Position numbers and translations under genes: made by a program
Shown here: positions 40,532 to 47,159 of the stretch, piece after piece
How positions within the stretch are numbered: the stretch's first letter is position 1
How the letters are laid out: each line of letters starts with the position of its first letter
Notes under the pieces: model-generated
The model's input: only the letters and a program-made list of their open reading frames with translations
Told to the model about the DNA's origin: nothing
The model's database searches: none
Assembly: GCA_946627565.1 (NCBI GenBank)
Contig: CAMOVR010000001.1
Location: forward strand, 33,242-97,241
Source: an uncultured Clostridia bacterium
GTDB taxonomy: Bacteria; Bacillota; Clostridia; Christensenellales; Aristaeellaceae
Direction: 5' to 3'
Length of the DNA: 64,000 nucleotides

Positions 40532-40605
40532 CTGGGTGTGGCGCAGTTTGGTAGCGTGCCTGAATGGGGTTCAGGAGGCCGGAAGTTCAAGTCTTCTCAC
40601 CCAGA
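40532..40605 (+). tRNA. tRNA-Pro (anticodon GGG)
   Basis: 74-nt cloverleaf ctgggtg...cacccag; anticodon arm CCTGA ATGGGGT TCAGG; CCA not encoded. Confidence 0.93.
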
Positions 40606-40645: not shown

Positions 40646-40718
40646 CATCTGCAGGATACCATATCAGAAAGAACGGCAGCCGGGAATCCGGCTGCCGTAA
40701 TATGTCTTCATGACAGGA

Positions 40719-41894
40719 TTATTCGTTTCTTGGCATATCCATATAGTCTTCTGAAGATATGGGCATTCTTTTTTTCCGGAGCCTGTTTTCGATGGATGCA
40801 TTGACAATGGAGTATATAAGGGCAAACACCGGTACGCTCAGGAGAATACCCATGAAACCGAACAGACCGCTGCCCAGAATGATGGCGAACATGGTCCACA
40901 GTGCAGTGATGCCCACATGATCCCCCAGGATTTTCGGTCCTATGACATTTCCGTCAATCTGCTGCAGCACCAGAATGAAAACCGTAAAGACCAGGGCATG
41001 CATGGGATCCACCATAAGCAGGATAAAAATGCTGGGGATGGCACCGATGAAGGGTCCAAAGAACGGAAGAATATTCGTTACACCAATGATGACACTGATG
41101 AGGGTGCTGTAGCGCATACCGGTAATGAGCATAAAGATGTAACAGATGACGCCCACAATCAGACTGTCAATGATCTTGCCTGACAGGAACCCGCCAAAAA
41201 GCCTGTTTCCCTGACGTGTCCAGAAAATCAGTGAATCAGCATTTTTCCTTTCCATGAATGCATAGCACGCACGCTTGAACTTGCTGGCCATGGAATCGCG
41301 GTCCAGGAGCAGGTGGCAGCTGATGATCAGACCCACAAAGAGATGGAAGATAAATTGGTACACTGTGTTGGATATATTCAGCAGATTGGGCAGGAACACA
41401 TTGATATACTGCGACAGCGTTGAGACCAGGTTGTCCCAGAAGGAATTCAGTTCAGATCCTTCTACGGTAAACAGACCGTTCTTGATGAGGAACTCGTTAA
41501 TGGTGGATTCATTGTTGTTGACAAAATCCGTTACCAGGTCCACCAGAGACTTGATGGAGGAAATAACCTGAGGCAGCAGGATGATCAGAAAGCCGGCCAG
41601 CATGGCAATCAGAAAAATCATGCAGATAAAAGTCGACAGGCCGCGGATCACCCGGGGAGAAGCCTTCTTCATGCAGCTTTTCATAAAGCCTTCCAGACGT
41701 TTGCTGATAGGAAGCAGAATAAAGGCAAAAATGGCACCGACCAGAAATGGCCCCAGTATCAGAAAGATCTTTCCGATATACGCGCTGATACTGGAAAGAT
41801 ACAGGACAATGGCAAGAAACAATGCTGCAAAGGCACAGGTAATGATATTTGCCTTTGCCCGGTCATGTTCTGATTCAGGAATGAGTTTCTTCAC
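40719..41894 (-). CDS. AI-2E family transporter
   Basis: About 8 TM segments; RYSTLISVIIGVTNILPFFGPFIGAIPSIFILLM, QQIDGNVIGPKILGDHVGI. Confidence 0.93.
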   Translation of the reverse strand: MKKLIPESEHDRAKANIITCAFAALFLAIVLYLSSISAYIGKIFLILGPFLVGAIFAFILLPISKRLEGFMKSCMKKASPRVIRGLSTFICMIFLIAMLAGFLIILLPQVISSIKSLVDLVTDFVNNNESTINEFLIKNGLFTVEGSELNSFWDNLVSTLSQYINVFLPNLLNISNTVYQFIFHLFVGLIISCHLLLDRDSMASKFKRACYAFMERKNADSLIFWTRQGNRLFGGFLSGKIIDSLIVGVICYIFMLITGMRYSTLISVIIGVTNILPFFGPFIGAIPSIFILLMVDPMHALVFTVFILVLQQIDGNVIGPKILGDHVGITALWTMFAIILGSGLFGFMGILLSVPVFALIYSIVNASIENRLRKKRMPISSEDYMDMPRNE

Positions 41895-42010: not shown

Positions 42011-44329
42011 TCAATCAAAAGACCGTTCCGGATATTTGCGCCTTCCAGTATAACATTTCTCACAGATCCAATAGGGATAATCCCAGGGGATGGAGCGCCC
42101 GCAGCGTTTGCAGGTTTTCCCTCTGAGTTTTCTGGAAGCAAGAATCTTCATGATGCCTTTGGAGAGAAGGTATTTCCTCTCATCGATCTCCTGACGCAGT
42201 TCCTCACGGTCAGAGAGAAATAGCCGGACATAATTGGCGCACAGATCACAGATGCTATAGGCGTGTTCCAGCTGGTCCAGCATCTGGATTGTAACGTTTT
42301 CAGGCTGGATTTTTTCCGGCAGAAAGGAAAGAACGTCCAGGTGCTCGTGGAAAGATTCGCTGCGGTACATTTCCAGCCACATGGCAAGCAGTTCCTTTTT
42401 GGATTCATCAAAGGGAATGGTGATCATCCGGTAAAGAAACTGCTTGTCCGTGTTCCTGGTTTCCACAAGACCGGCAAGAAAGAGATGACGTTCAATCTTT
42501 GCCTGCTTCCATCCGGCCTGGTCACCGACTTCCATCCACTTGTGCAGGATATCTGTAAGAGGTGCGTCGATGCCAAGCAGTGTTTCAGGAAACTGTATGA
42601 TGGCTTCCGTAAGCTCTTCATCCGGAGTTGACAGGGCATACTCGATTTCTTCCGGGAACTCAGAGGTCGCAGCATAGCCTGTGTCATACATACCATACCG
42701 TCCGGCACGTCCGGCGATCTGTTTGATTTCATGGTCCTCCAGATGCCGGATAAACTCACCGTCGAATTTGCTCATTTCAAGGAAAACAACACGCTGAATC
42801 GGAAGATTCAGGCCCATGCCAATGGCATCTGTTGCCACCACCACACTGGTTTCACCCTCCCGGAAACGGCGGGCTTCCTCATGACGCACATCGTAGGGCA
42901 GGGCACCGTAGATGATAGAGGCACGCATGCCTCCCCTCTCCTTCTGCAGTTCAGCAGCCACAGCATGGACACTTCGCTTGGAAAAGACGATGAGAGCGTC
43001 CCCGTCCCGGACATCCGCCGGGAAACGGAAACGTTTGTCTTCAGCAATCAGAGGCGTCTGCCTCTGGTGGTGTACAACCTCCACATCGTCTCCGCAGCTC
43101 TGTATGATATTTACCAGTAGTTTTTCAGCATCCGGAGAGGCACATACGTGGATCTCCCGGGCGGCAAGTCCCAGAATGGCGGCTGACCAGCTGCCTCCCC
43201 TTTCAGGGTCTGCAATCATCTGCCCTTCGTCGATCACACCGACTTCATAGAATCTGTTCAGATCGGCCATTTCAATGGTGGATGCCGTAATATTGGCACA
43301 GACCACGGAGATGTGTTCTTCACCGGTCAAAAGATTGCAGGGAACACCGTCGTGGTTCATGGTGTCAAACTGCTCATAGGCAAGAAGCCGGAGAGGTGCC
43401 AGGTATACACCGCTGCTTGCTTCTTCCAGACGGGAGATGGCATCGTAGGTCTTGCCCGAATTGGTGGGCCCGATATGCAGTACAAAAGAACGGTGAATGG
43501 ACCGTGCAACCGGATAGAGGTCCCGGTAATGTTCCGGGATGGCCTGAAGGACGGCATGCCGCAGAGAAATCAGACGTCTGTACTGCCCTGCCAGTTTGCG
43601 GTATCTTTTTCGGGTTTCCAGAAGTGCAAGGATTTTCTGAAGGGGAAAACGTTCCTGCATGCGCTGCATGTATACAGCTGCATATTCCTCCGTTTTTGCC
43701 AGCAGCTGTTCCATTTTTTCCGCCAGTTCGGGATCTGCACTGACTTTGCTGACGGTCAGATCTTTCAGACCCGGGAAATACTGGAACAGACTGCGGTACA
43801 GATGGCGTGGAAGCCTGCGGCTGTGCAGCAGAACCGTCTCTATGAACAGACGGAGGTTTTCGCCCTGGAACATATCGAAAAATTCTTCCAGATTGGAAGA
43901 GGACAGCGGTATACCGGAATCAGGATTTCCGGACAGATTGTGATATCGCAGTTCATTCTGCAGAAGATACTCCTGAAAGGAAGCAGCATCCTGTTCCAGG
44001 ATGGAATCCAGATGCGTCCTGAAAAATTCGTCCGCATCCAGTGTTTCAAACACAAGCCTTGCACACTGTAGATCCTGTTCCTGCTTTACCATGCGGCGGA
44101 TCTGGTGCAGCGTCAGGCTATCCGGCAGAGGCCCTTCCCTGAGAATACGCTCCAGCATAGGCCGGACTCTCAAATAGTCTTTCTGAATATCAGACTCCTC
44201 TTCCGGGATCCTGGGCAGCGGCTCCTTCTGAGACTTCTTTTTGCCTTTTTCCTTTCGCTGCTGGAAAACAGCCTGCTTTTCCTTTTCAAGAAGTTCAAGA
44301 TATACGTCCCATGTCTGTATTTCTTCCAT
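42011..44329 (-). CDS. Suv3-like DExH-box (RNA) helicase with C-terminal zinc-ribbon-like motif
   Basis: LHIGPTNSGKTYDAISRL (Walker A), GVYLAPLRLLAYEQFD, GVIDEGQMIADPERGGSWSAAILGLAAREIHVC, helicase C motif IKQIAGRAGRYG; C-terminal CKRCGRSIPWDYPYWICEKC. Confidence 0.88.
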   Translation of the reverse strand: MEEIQTWDVYLELLEKEKQAVFQQRKEKGKKKSQKEPLPRIPEEESDIQKDYLRVRPMLERILREGPLPDSLTLHQIRRMVKQEQDLQCARLVFETLDADEFFRTHLDSILEQDAASFQEYLLQNELRYHNLSGNPDSGIPLSSSNLEEFFDMFQGENLRLFIETVLLHSRRLPRHLYRSLFQYFPGLKDLTVSKVSADPELAEKMEQLLAKTEEYAAVYMQRMQERFPLQKILALLETRKRYRKLAGQYRRLISLRHAVLQAIPEHYRDLYPVARSIHRSFVLHIGPTNSGKTYDAISRLEEASSGVYLAPLRLLAYEQFDTMNHDGVPCNLLTGEEHISVVCANITASTIEMADLNRFYEVGVIDEGQMIADPERGGSWSAAILGLAAREIHVCASPDAEKLLVNIIQSCGDDVEVVHHQRQTPLIAEDKRFRFPADVRDGDALIVFSKRSVHAVAAELQKERGGMRASIIYGALPYDVRHEEARRFREGETSVVVATDAIGMGLNLPIQRVVFLEMSKFDGEFIRHLEDHEIKQIAGRAGRYGMYDTGYAATSEFPEEIEYALSTPDEELTEAIIQFPETLLGIDAPLTDILHKWMEVGDQAGWKQAKIERHLFLAGLVETRNTDKQFLYRMITIPFDESKKELLAMWLEMYRSESFHEHLDVLSFLPEKIQPENVTIQMLDQLEHAYSICDLCANYVRLFLSDREELRQEIDERKYLLSKGIMKILASRKLRGKTCKRCGRSIPWDYPYWICEKCYTGRRKYPERSFD

Positions 44330-44343
44330 AGACTGCCCCCTTT

Positions 44344-44937
44344 TTATGCGTTCTTTTCTGCCTCTTCATAGCAGTCCAGCAGGTGCCACATGATCTGCCC
44401 GCATACGGCAGCATCTGAAGAGGCCCGGTGGGCATCTTCGTTGACAAAGCCAAGCTGATCGGCGATGGTACCCTGTTTGAAGTCCGGCATGCCCGTGAGC
44501 AGTTCTCTTGACAGGGAGAGCGTATCAATATAGTAGAAAGTCGCGCTCATCTGGCACCTGTCAAGGGCCTGCTTCAGAAAGGAAAAGTCGATCTTTGCGT
44601 TATGGGCGCAGAGAAGGACCTCGCCTTTGGCAGCGTCCCCAAGAAAATCAAGAAAGTCGCGGTACACTTCCGGCTCCCTTGGTGCTTTTTTGAGATCTTC
44701 GTTGGAAATGTGGTTGACGGTCTGTGAGCTTGGGCGCACATACAGGCCGCAGTTTACAAGGGAAGAAAAGACCCGGGTGGGCTTTCCTTCCTCGAACACA
44801 ACTGCACCCAGTTCAATGATCCTGTCTGTTGCGGCATTCAGCCCGGTGATTTCCGTGTCAAAGGCGACAAAACACTTGCGCATCATGGAGCAGGTTTCGT
44901 CGTCCAGCCTGACCTGGAATCCATCTACTTTGGACAT
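44344..44937 (-). CDS. DEDDh 3'-5' exonuclease (DnaQ/epsilon-like)
   Basis: FVAFDTEITGLNAATDRIIELGAVVF, LCAHNAKIDFSFLKQAL, HRASSDAAV. Confidence 0.93.
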   Translation of the reverse strand: MSKVDGFQVRLDDETCSMMRKCFVAFDTEITGLNAATDRIIELGAVVFEEGKPTRVFSSLVNCGLYVRPSSQTVNHISNEDLKKAPREPEVYRDFLDFLGDAAKGEVLLCAHNAKIDFSFLKQALDRCQMSATFYYIDTLSLSRELLTGMPDFKQGTIADQLGFVNEDAHRASSDAAVCGQIMWHLLDCYEEAEKNA

Positions 44938-44964: not shown

Positions 44965-45390
44965 TTAATAGTGCGGTTTCCAGGCATCTCTGGGGTTTTC
45001 CTGAAGAAAGGAAACGACTTTCCGGTCTGCTGCTGCCCAGTCCAGACTGTCCAGGCGAGACAGAGGAAGCCAGCAGGACGAGAGATGCTCCAGCCTGTGA
45101 AATGCGGGATGGTCCAGAAGACATGCGTAACAATGCATGGTCATCTTAAAATCCGGATAGGTATGCTCAACGGTTATAAGATGGTCTTCCGGGCGGATGA
45201 CCACATCCAGCTCCATCTCTTCCCGCAGCTCCCGTTCCAGCGCTTTTTCAGGAGCTTCACCTGTTTCCACCTTCCCGCCGGGGAATTCATATTTTTTGGA
45301 AACGTATGCATGACTGCTTTCGCCTCTCTGCATGCAGAGAAACTGTCCGTCTGATATGATTACAGCGGCCACCACTTCAAGATGTTTCAT
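44965..45390 (-). CDS. NUDIX (MutT-like) nucleoside triphosphate pyrophosphohydrolase
   Basis: NUDIX box GKVETGEAPEKALERELREEMEL; start set at MKHLEVVAAV. Confidence 0.92.
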   Translation of the reverse strand: MKHLEVVAAVIISDGQFLCMQRGESSHAYVSKKYEFPGGKVETGEAPEKALERELREEMELDVVIRPEDHLITVEHTYPDFKMTMHCYACLLDHPAFHRLEHLSSCWLPLSRLDSLDWAAADRKVVSFLQENPRDAWKPHY

Positions 45391-45412
45391 CAGCTGTGCT
45401 CCTTTCCATTGC

Positions 45413-45441
45413 ATTGTAAGGGTTTTCTTATGGTACGTCAA
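45413..45441 (-). promoter_or_regulatory. Sigma-A promoter for the NUDIX gene
   Basis: Minus strand TTGACG - 17 bp - TACAAT. Confidence 0.65.
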
Positions 45442-45442
45442 C

Positions 45443-45473
45443 AAAAAAAGCAGGCCGGAATATACCGGCCTGC
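45443..45473 (-). terminator. Intrinsic terminator of the PAEEAA-repeat protein gene
   Basis: Minus strand GCAGGCCGGTATATTCCGGCCTGC followed by TTTTTTT. Confidence 0.9.
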
Positions 45474-45490: not shown

Positions 45491-46165
45491 TTACTCGGCA
45501 GGAGTTCCCTCAGCAGGAGCTTCTTCGGCGGGAGCAGCTTCCTCAGCGGGAGCAGTTTCCTCAGCGGGAGCGGCTTCTTCAGCAGGAGCAGCTTCCTCAG
45601 CGGGAGCGGCTTCCTCGGCGGGAGCAGCTTCCTCAGCAGGGGCAGCTTCTTCGGCAGGAGCAGCTTCCTCAGCGGGAGCTTCCACGACAGTGCCTTCCAC
45701 AGCGATTTCTTCTACAGCTTCCTCAGCGGGAGCGGCTTCTTCAGCAGGGGCAGCTTCTTCAGCGGCTTCGCCGCCCACCAGGGACAGGGTGGTACGGATC
45801 ATATCTTCCACATTCTGGAGGCCGTTTTTCAGCTCATCGTTCACAGCCAGAGCATCTGCAACCTGAGCGGCCAGAGCTTCCTTCTCAGAGGTAACAGCGG
45901 CCAGCTGAGCGGTCAGATCAGCCACGCTGGTTTCAAGGTCATTAATGGTTGCCTGAGCACCTGCGATGGCTTCATCGGCAGTGGCAGCAGCCTTATCGAT
46001 TTCACCCTGAGCCTGGGTTACGGATGCGGACATGGAGGTGAGCTGTGCTTTCAGGGATTCGAGTTCGCTGGAAACAGCGCCCTTCTGGCTGGTGCTGACA
46101 CATGCCCAGATAAAAACGATGGCAAGAGCAACGGCGAGAATAATAGAAATCTTTTTGTTGTCCAT
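45491..46165 (-). CDS. Membrane-anchored coiled-coil protein with C-terminal (PAEEAA)n repeat tail
   Basis: N-terminal TM MDNKKISIILAVALAIVFIWACV, heptad-like middle (LESLKAQLTSMSASVTQAQGEIDKAA...), then about 12 APAEEA-type repeats; strong promoter and terminator. Confidence 0.8.
   Translation of the reverse strand: MDNKKISIILAVALAIVFIWACVSTSQKGAVSSELESLKAQLTSMSASVTQAQGEIDKAAATADEAIAGAQATINDLETSVADLTAQLAAVTSEKEALAAQVADALAVNDELKNGLQNVEDMIRTTLSLVGGEAAEEAAPAEEAAPAEEAVEEIAVEGTVVEAPAEEAAPAEEAAPAEEAAPAEEAAPAEEAAPAEEAAPAEETAPAEEAAPAEEAPAEGTPAE
45500..45765 (-). repeat. 18-bp tandem repeats encoding PAEEAA hexapeptides
   Basis: Repeated gcttcctcagcgggagca-like units, interrupted once by TVVEAPAEEA...EEIAVEG. 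Confidence 0.88.
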
Positions 46166-46270: not shown

Positions 46271-47002
46271 TCAGTCCGTCTCAGCAGGGTCAAGCCATTC
46301 GGAGAGCACGGTCTGCATGGTCAGGAGCTGGGCGACCATTTCCTCTTTCTCCCTGTTCAGTGCAGCGATGTTCCTGTCCTTTTCACTGACTTCTGCCGTC
46401 AGGCTGTCCACACTGTTCTGCAGGTTTTTAACCTGCCCTTCCAGGGATGCCTTTTCGGCATTGACAGCGGCAATCTCGGAAGCCTGGGCATCATTTAAGA
46501 TGGTGGATACAGACAGATCGGAGGAAAGCTTCTCGATCACCCTGCTTTTTTCAAGGGATTCTCCGGAAAGGGCCTTCACTTTTTCATCAAAGGCAGCACC
46601 CAGGGATGTCAGCAGGCTTTCGGTCTTTGCAATCCCGCTTTCCAGGACGGCTGCAGTATCTTCTTCCGCGGGCCCGTCCTGTTTATCTTCAGTCTGCTCA
46701 ATTCCAAAGAAAGTCTTCAGGATAGAAGCTGCATGCTCCTCAAGCGCCTCCAGTGACGCAAGCGGTGCCTGAAGGCTGGCTGAAAAGGCTTCGGACTGAG
46801 CTGTCTGCTCTTCCGCATGTTTTTCCAGCTGTTCAACCTCTCCTCTGAGTCTGTTTCCTTCATCGTCAGCTGCAGCCAGTCTGGTCTCAAGATCTGTAAG
46901 GGAAGTCTGCATCTGACCGATCCGGACAGCCTGGGAAATACTGAAAATAAGGCATGCAAGAAGCAGAACCGACAGGATAATGGATATGGTTTTCGGGTTC
47001 AC
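46271..47002 (-). CDS. Membrane-anchored coiled-coil protein, paralogous architecture to 45491-46165
   Basis: GTG start inferred at VNPKTISIILSVLLLACLIFSI; long heptad-like region (LEGQVKNLQNSVDSLTAEVSEKDRNIAALNREKEEM). Confidence 0.75.
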   Translation of the reverse strand: MNPKTISIILSVLLLACLIFSISQAVRIGQMQTSLTDLETRLAAADDEGNRLRGEVEQLEKHAEEQTAQSEAFSASLQAPLASLEALEEHAASILKTFFGIEQTEDKQDGPAEEDTAAVLESGIAKTESLLTSLGAAFDEKVKALSGESLEKSRVIEKLSSDLSVSTILNDAQASEIAAVNAEKASLEGQVKNLQNSVDSLTAEVSEKDRNIAALNREKEEMVAQLLTMQTVLSEWLDPAETD

Positions 47003-47107
47003 CTGTTCCCCCTCCTTTTGTCTGTTGCCGGGCTTGTGGTTAATCGGATGAAGCCCATATTTAAAACATCTGAAAGACTTAGGATATATCTGACCAATTC
47101 CATGAAA

Positions 47108-47136
47108 AATATACGTCCATTGAGGTGTTTTGTCAA
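47108..47136 (-). promoter_or_regulatory. Candidate sigma-A promoter for the 46271-47002 gene
   Basis: Minus strand TTGACA - 17 bp - TATATT. Confidence 0.55.
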
Positions 47137-47159
47137 TTGAATCAGGCACATCCCCTGTT

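Follow-up and report, generated by a model that had tools for sequence, protein, structure and literature searches.

A predicted stand-alone DEDDh exonuclease and a zinc-ribbon Suv3-like helicase encoded as a conserved pair in a small clade of gut bacteria

Genes and features at the locus

The window analyzed here is a stretch of 64,000 nucleotides from an uncultured Clostridia bacterium of the family Aristaeellaceae. The genes and signals under study are these:

40719..41894, minus strand: AI-2E family transporter (Pfam, 3.7e-51), the downstream syntenic neighbor of the helicase
42011..44329, minus strand: Suv3-family DExQ helicase, 772 aa (Pfam, phmmer, AlphaFold and Foldseek)
42053..42112, minus strand: zinc-ribbon tail of the helicase, CxxC-x12-CxxC with C740, C743, C756 and C759 (sequence)
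44344..44937, minus strand: stand-alone DEDDh 3'-5' exonuclease, 197 aa (RNase_T, catalytic residues, AlphaFold and Foldseek)
44965..45444, minus strand: MutT-like NUDIX hydrolase, heading the unit (NUDIX_4, 3.7e-18)
45413..45441, minus strand: sigma70-type promoter TTGACG-17-TACAAT (sequence; conserved in L092 and L093)
45450..45473, minus strand: intrinsic terminator between the upstream coiled-coil gene and the unit (9-bp stem with 8 G-C pairs, T run)

The helicase lies downstream of the exonuclease, both on the minus strand, and the exonuclease stop codon is separated from the helicase ATG by 14 bp (44330-44343), exactly as an earlier reading of the sequence alone had described. For the open reading frames, family matches and catalytic residues presented below, match strength is far above chance. 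That sequence-only reading did not include the NUDIX gene, which precedes the exonuclease at a distance of 27 bp; its listed frame opens with a TTG further upstream, in overlap with the promoter, and the ATG at 45390 is the more probable start. The NUDIX protein also matched the PADLOC candidate model PDC-S07 (1e-40), which is likely a general MutT-like match.

Because a terminator and a promoter both precede the NUDIX gene, the NUDIX, exonuclease and helicase genes very likely form one transcription unit, a predicted operon. The promoter motif has a single exact match in the whole window, and identical hexamers, again 17 bases apart, stand before the unit in L092 (7042-7070) and L093 (11298-11326). 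In the latter, which belongs to genome G002, an inverted repeat (AACCTG-AAA-CAGGTT) lies inside the promoter spacer, and between the -10 box and the NUDIX start there is a hairpin with a T run that resembles a terminator (L093:11298-11357); these may represent an attenuator or an operator. Membership of the AI-2E gene in the unit is uncertain; no minus-strand terminator was found in the 116-bp gap that separates it from the helicase. Downstream of the AI-2E gene there is a strong terminator hairpin (40673-40698), legible on both strands, and the only structured RNA found around the pair is the adjoining tRNA (40532-40605). On the upstream side, two genes encode coiled-coil proteins (45491-46165, with an AEEAAP-type repeat at the C terminus, and 46271-47149); both have upstream counterparts in genome G004, and only the first has one in G002.

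The helicase belongs to a zinc-ribbon branch of the Suv3 family

The predicted helicase comprises an N-terminal helical region, RecA1 (~270-420), RecA2 (~441-546), a helical C-terminal region and the zinc-ribbon tail. Pfam profiles identified DEXQc_Suv3 (PF22527, E=3.7e-59) and Helicase_C (E=9.4e-15), and phmmer against PDB sequences retrieved yeast Suv3 (6f4a, 2e-67) among Suv3 chains at ~1e-65. The motifs GPTNSGKT (287-294), DEGQ (367-370), RGGSW (377-381) and QIAGRAGR (537-544) fall in columns that are largely invariant in an alignment with 56 homologues, and thus both marks of the Suv3 family, a DExQ motif II and a QxxGRAGR motif VI, are present. The AlphaFold model (pLDDT 92) produced human Suv3 as its top Foldseek match (3rc3, 2e-41, TM-score 0.73 on the target, 26% identity), followed by yeast Suv3 in mtEXO (6f4a, 3e-31), with Mtr4 as the next family (4e-14); the nearest solved fold is accordingly that of Suv3, ahead of other SF2 helicases (Mtr4, Ski2, Hel308). 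The proposal of a Suv3-type helicase, made previously from motifs, is therefore borne out by motifs, profiles and predicted fold alike.

The SUV3_C domain is usual in eukaryotic Suv3 members and is not obligatory for every Suv3-like helicase. SUV3_C (PF12513) gave no match in the window helicase up to E=1, and among 13 scanned homologues it was detected in one (L015, the most divergent full-length sequence of that set); a genome-level search for the domain carries no weight, since the control genomes went unmatched too. Suv3 membership consequently rests on the helicase core and the overall fold.

The CxxC-x12-CxxC ending noted earlier is intact, and a CxxC-CxxC tail is present in most of 116 distinct clostridial helicase homologues. 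Given this tail common to clostridial homologues and the Suv3 fold retrieved by Foldseek, we assign the helicase to a zinc-ribbon branch of the Suv3 family; the tail itself is a trait of this wide clostridial branch, neither specific to the pair nor a mark of a degradosome. The open-access literature yielded no paper about such clostridial helicases with a zinc ribbon. Suv3-like helicases were also seen in three large viral contigs (L222, L223 and L224) and in the 440-kb Salicola phage SCTP-2 (MF360958.1), those of L223 and L224 also bearing a CxxC-CxxC tail.

A stand-alone DEDDh exonuclease

The exonuclease matched RNase_T (E=1.9e-25), and its catalytic residues D27, E29, D117, H170 and D175 (D-x-E, D, H-x4-D) were invariant in 18 homologues. 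All five residues together with an RNase T-like fold place it among the DEDDh (DnaQ-like) exonucleases, in agreement with the earlier proposal. The top NCBIfam match was PolC (1.2e-33), and the structures closest to the AlphaFold model (pLDDT 96) in Foldseek were the exonuclease domains of Staphylococcus aureus DinG (with ssDNA) and PolC. Relatives within the same bacterial family bear extra C-terminal regions. One genome of this family (G042) encodes a RecQ helicase (DEAD, RecQ_Zn_bind, RQC, HRDC; L094:2238-4946) whose C-terminal domain is a DEDDh exonuclease 47% identical to that of the window; this WRN-like RecQ-exonuclease pairing in a bacterium is the sole such fusion among 300 family genomes. 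In a sample of 297 order genomes, the window genome included, no further exonuclease of the window type was found at E 1e-35.

That the pair came from a phage or another mobile element was considered and rejected: no close relative of the exonuclease was found in viral contigs, and no DEDDh exonuclease stands beside the three viral-contig Suv3 loci. A role in anti-phage defence was likewise discarded, PADLOC having matched the locus to nothing beyond generic models for a helicase, a DEDDh enzyme and a NUDIX protein, in surroundings made up of housekeeping genes.

Conservation of the pair among relatives

Nine genomes of the genus, including the window genome, were compared (81-95% complete). 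Exonuclease orthologues (71-73% identical) occurred in three of the nine, window genome included, and in every one of these three the exonuclease lay directly upstream of a helicase from one orthologous clade, behind the same promoter, so that an exonuclease orthologue was never met without the orthologous helicase. In the tree the exonuclease-linked helicases form their own clade (SH-aLRT 100). These helicases are only 52-57% identical to each other among the three species, the promoter hexamers and their spacing being identical nonetheless. In G002 a NUDIX orthologue (58%) precedes the exonuclease. On the G004 contig neither a NUDIX gene nor a remnant of one was found; the exonuclease and helicase are there the first genes after the conserved promoter, and a 61% identical AI-2E orthologue adjoins the helicase. 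All nine genomes carry at least one Suv3-like helicase, the common type forming a separate clade that lacks the exonuclease. To this common-type clade belongs the other Suv3-like helicase of the window genome (G000:C3:63339-65486, L022; 44% identical), next to which no linked DEDDh exonuclease was found. From these sequence comparisons, we regard the pair as a real conserved gene pair of one small clade of related gut (mostly rumen) bacteria.

A broader survey covered 100 Suv3-like loci from named rumen and gut Clostridia, family genomes and the window, 62 of them having flanks of 3 kb or more on either side. The search for exonucleases used five DEDDh queries with a cutoff of E 1e-4 and may have missed highly divergent ones. 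A DEDDh exonuclease was detectable at three loci, all from the exonuclease-linked clade, and none was detected in the available flanks of the remaining 97. A general linkage between Suv3-like helicases and exonucleases was rejected on this survey, and so was another general neighbor, the most frequent neighbor family accompanying 10 of 91 loci and in no fixed position. The tight linkage suggested by the sequence-only reading thus holds in the form of co-directional genes behind one promoter in the three exonuclease-bearing genomes, and fails as a general property of Suv3 helicases; the neighborhood survey which that reading had called for found conservation in a three-species clade and otherwise none among relatives. 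The idea of a general bacterial Suv3-exonuclease partnership is not borne out, given the 97 loci and the second paralogue.

RNase R and other RNA-decay enzymes

RNase R was found in none of the nine genus genomes (81-95% complete), and no member of the RNB family was found in the window genome (82.8% complete), which encodes PNPase on a different contig. In the absence of RNase R from the genus, a helicase-assisted 3' exonuclease acting on structured RNA would have a role. Among 300 sampled family genomes, a Suv3-like helicase was present in 116 and RNase R in 77, with 20 genomes harboring both, 96 only Suv3, 57 only RNase R and 127 neither. Mutual exclusion of the two enzymes was rejected: the anti-association is weak, with a Fisher p=0.01 uncorrected for phylogeny, and is for that reason a lead rather than a result. 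The two enzymes occur without overlap in genus g49 (7 genomes with the Suv3-like helicase versus 20 with RNase R) and overlap in genus g33.

What the unit might do

The reading we tentatively place first, at a probability of roughly 0.45, is a lineage-specific NUDIX-DEDDh exonuclease-Suv3 unit whose helicase and exonuclease share their 3' ends as substrate. The Suv3-type motor would translocate and open structure, and the stand-alone exonuclease would take off the exposed 3' strand. The substrate would more probably be RNA, either structured or hybridized to DNA, DNA being possible as well. Co-transcription is here deduced from the sequence, and we also infer that the enzymes are coupled, be it physically or functionally, as well as their polarity and substrate. 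The division of labor between the two enzymes is proposed by analogy to exonuclease-DinG and to yeast Suv3, which unwinds RNA in the 3'-5' direction and strongly stimulates Dss1, the exonuclease it works with (PMC5818665). Coupling is favored by the 14-bp spacing behind a single terminator-promoter boundary, by a promoter shared among species whose helicases have diverged to 52-57% identity, by intact catalytic residues in both enzymes, and by relatives of the exonuclease that are joined to a helicase in one chain, namely DinG as its nearest solved fold and the RecQ fusion. RNA is favored by Suv3 ancestry and by the lack of RNase R in the nine congeners, and DinG exonucleases take RNA as a substrate in Listeria (PMC12774634) and RNA in hybrids in Bacillus subtilis (PMC12525004).

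Coupling on DNA accounts for part of this probability rather than adding to it, the two figures overlapping. In this version the unit would serve DNA repair or deal with nucleotide damage, as exonuclease-DinG in split form: the helicase would open DNA, the exonuclease would trim 3' DNA ends and the NUDIX hydrolase would clean the nucleotide pool. It draws on the relations of the exonuclease to DinG and to the proofreading domains of PolC, the 47% identical domain in the RecQ fusion and the MutT-like NUDIX gene that heads the unit; S. aureus DinG is a DNA crosslink-repair nuclease-helicase, an instance of a DEDDh exonuclease and an SF2 helicase forming one machine on DNA (PMC12345164), and rice Suv3 unwinds DNA and RNA alike (PMC4207899). 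We nevertheless deem it unlikely, since RNA decay is what the Suv3 family is best known for, G004 lacks the NUDIX gene and DinG exonucleases act on RNA too.

Coupling of any kind has to be weighed against simple co-transcription, in which three nucleic-acid housekeeping genes would share one promoter within an inherited syntenic block while their enzymes work separately, and this we hold to be nearly as likely. The pair is known from only three genomes of one genus, partial conservation extends to an upstream coiled-coil gene and to the downstream AI-2E gene, and shared local synteny may therefore explain the adjacency of exonuclease and helicase; the NUDIX and MATE genes are partly syntenic too, and the survey, with its 97 loci devoid of a detected exonuclease and its lack of any generally conserved neighbor, fits separate enzymes. 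What speaks for coupling over mere co-transcription is that the exonuclease orthologue always accompanies the orthologous helicase (3/3) and that G004, where the NUDIX gene is missing, keeps the two behind the same promoter.

A bacterial counterpart of the mitochondrial degradosome, a stable Suv3-exoribonuclease complex for general mRNA decay, could appeal to the Suv3 fold and the linked 3'-5' exonuclease; the sequence-only reading had offered a degradosome-like pair as a possibility, and the name of a degradosome is not supported. The known exonuclease partners of Suv3 are Dss1, of the RNB family, or PNPase, whereas the linked gene here encodes a DEDDh enzyme and PNPase sits on another contig; moreover, a pair present in three of nine congeners is a poor fit to a core decay machine, and this account appears very improbable. 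More speculatively, the pair might represent a two-chain Suv3-DEDDh machine unlike mtEXO or DinG, removing structured RNA or RNA-DNA hybrids in RNase R-less bacteria, with the wider zinc-ribbon Suv3 branch serving as a bacterial alternative for structured-RNA decay, which we judge rather improbable.

If the enzymes are coupled, they would add to Suv3-Dss1/PNPase and exonuclease-DinG a third way in which an SF2 helicase is combined with a 3' exonuclease; if they are not, the locus would be a warning against inferring partnership from adjacency. The linked exonuclease is one concrete candidate partner for a zinc-ribbon Suv3-like helicase.

Comparison with known systems

The window helicase has in common with Suv3/SUPV3L1 (3rc3, 6f4a) the DExQ RecA1, the RecA2 and the overall fold, and differs in having a C-terminal zinc ribbon and no detectable SUV3_C; the RNB or PNPase partner that characterizes mtEXO and Suv3-PNPase degradosomes is replaced at this locus by a linked DEDDh exonuclease. 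In exonuclease-DinG of S. aureus, B. subtilis and Listeria, too, an SF2 helicase is accompanied by a DEDDh 3'-5' exonuclease of PolC-like type, there as one fused chain with an XPD-like helicase, whereas the window pair consists of two separate open reading frames with a Suv3-like helicase. Other clostridial Suv3-like helicases with a zinc ribbon are those of Butyrivibrio and many MAGs, which belong to the same family and carry the same CxxC-CxxC tail, and from which the window helicase is set apart by the DEDDh exonuclease encoded beside it, none having been found near theirs.
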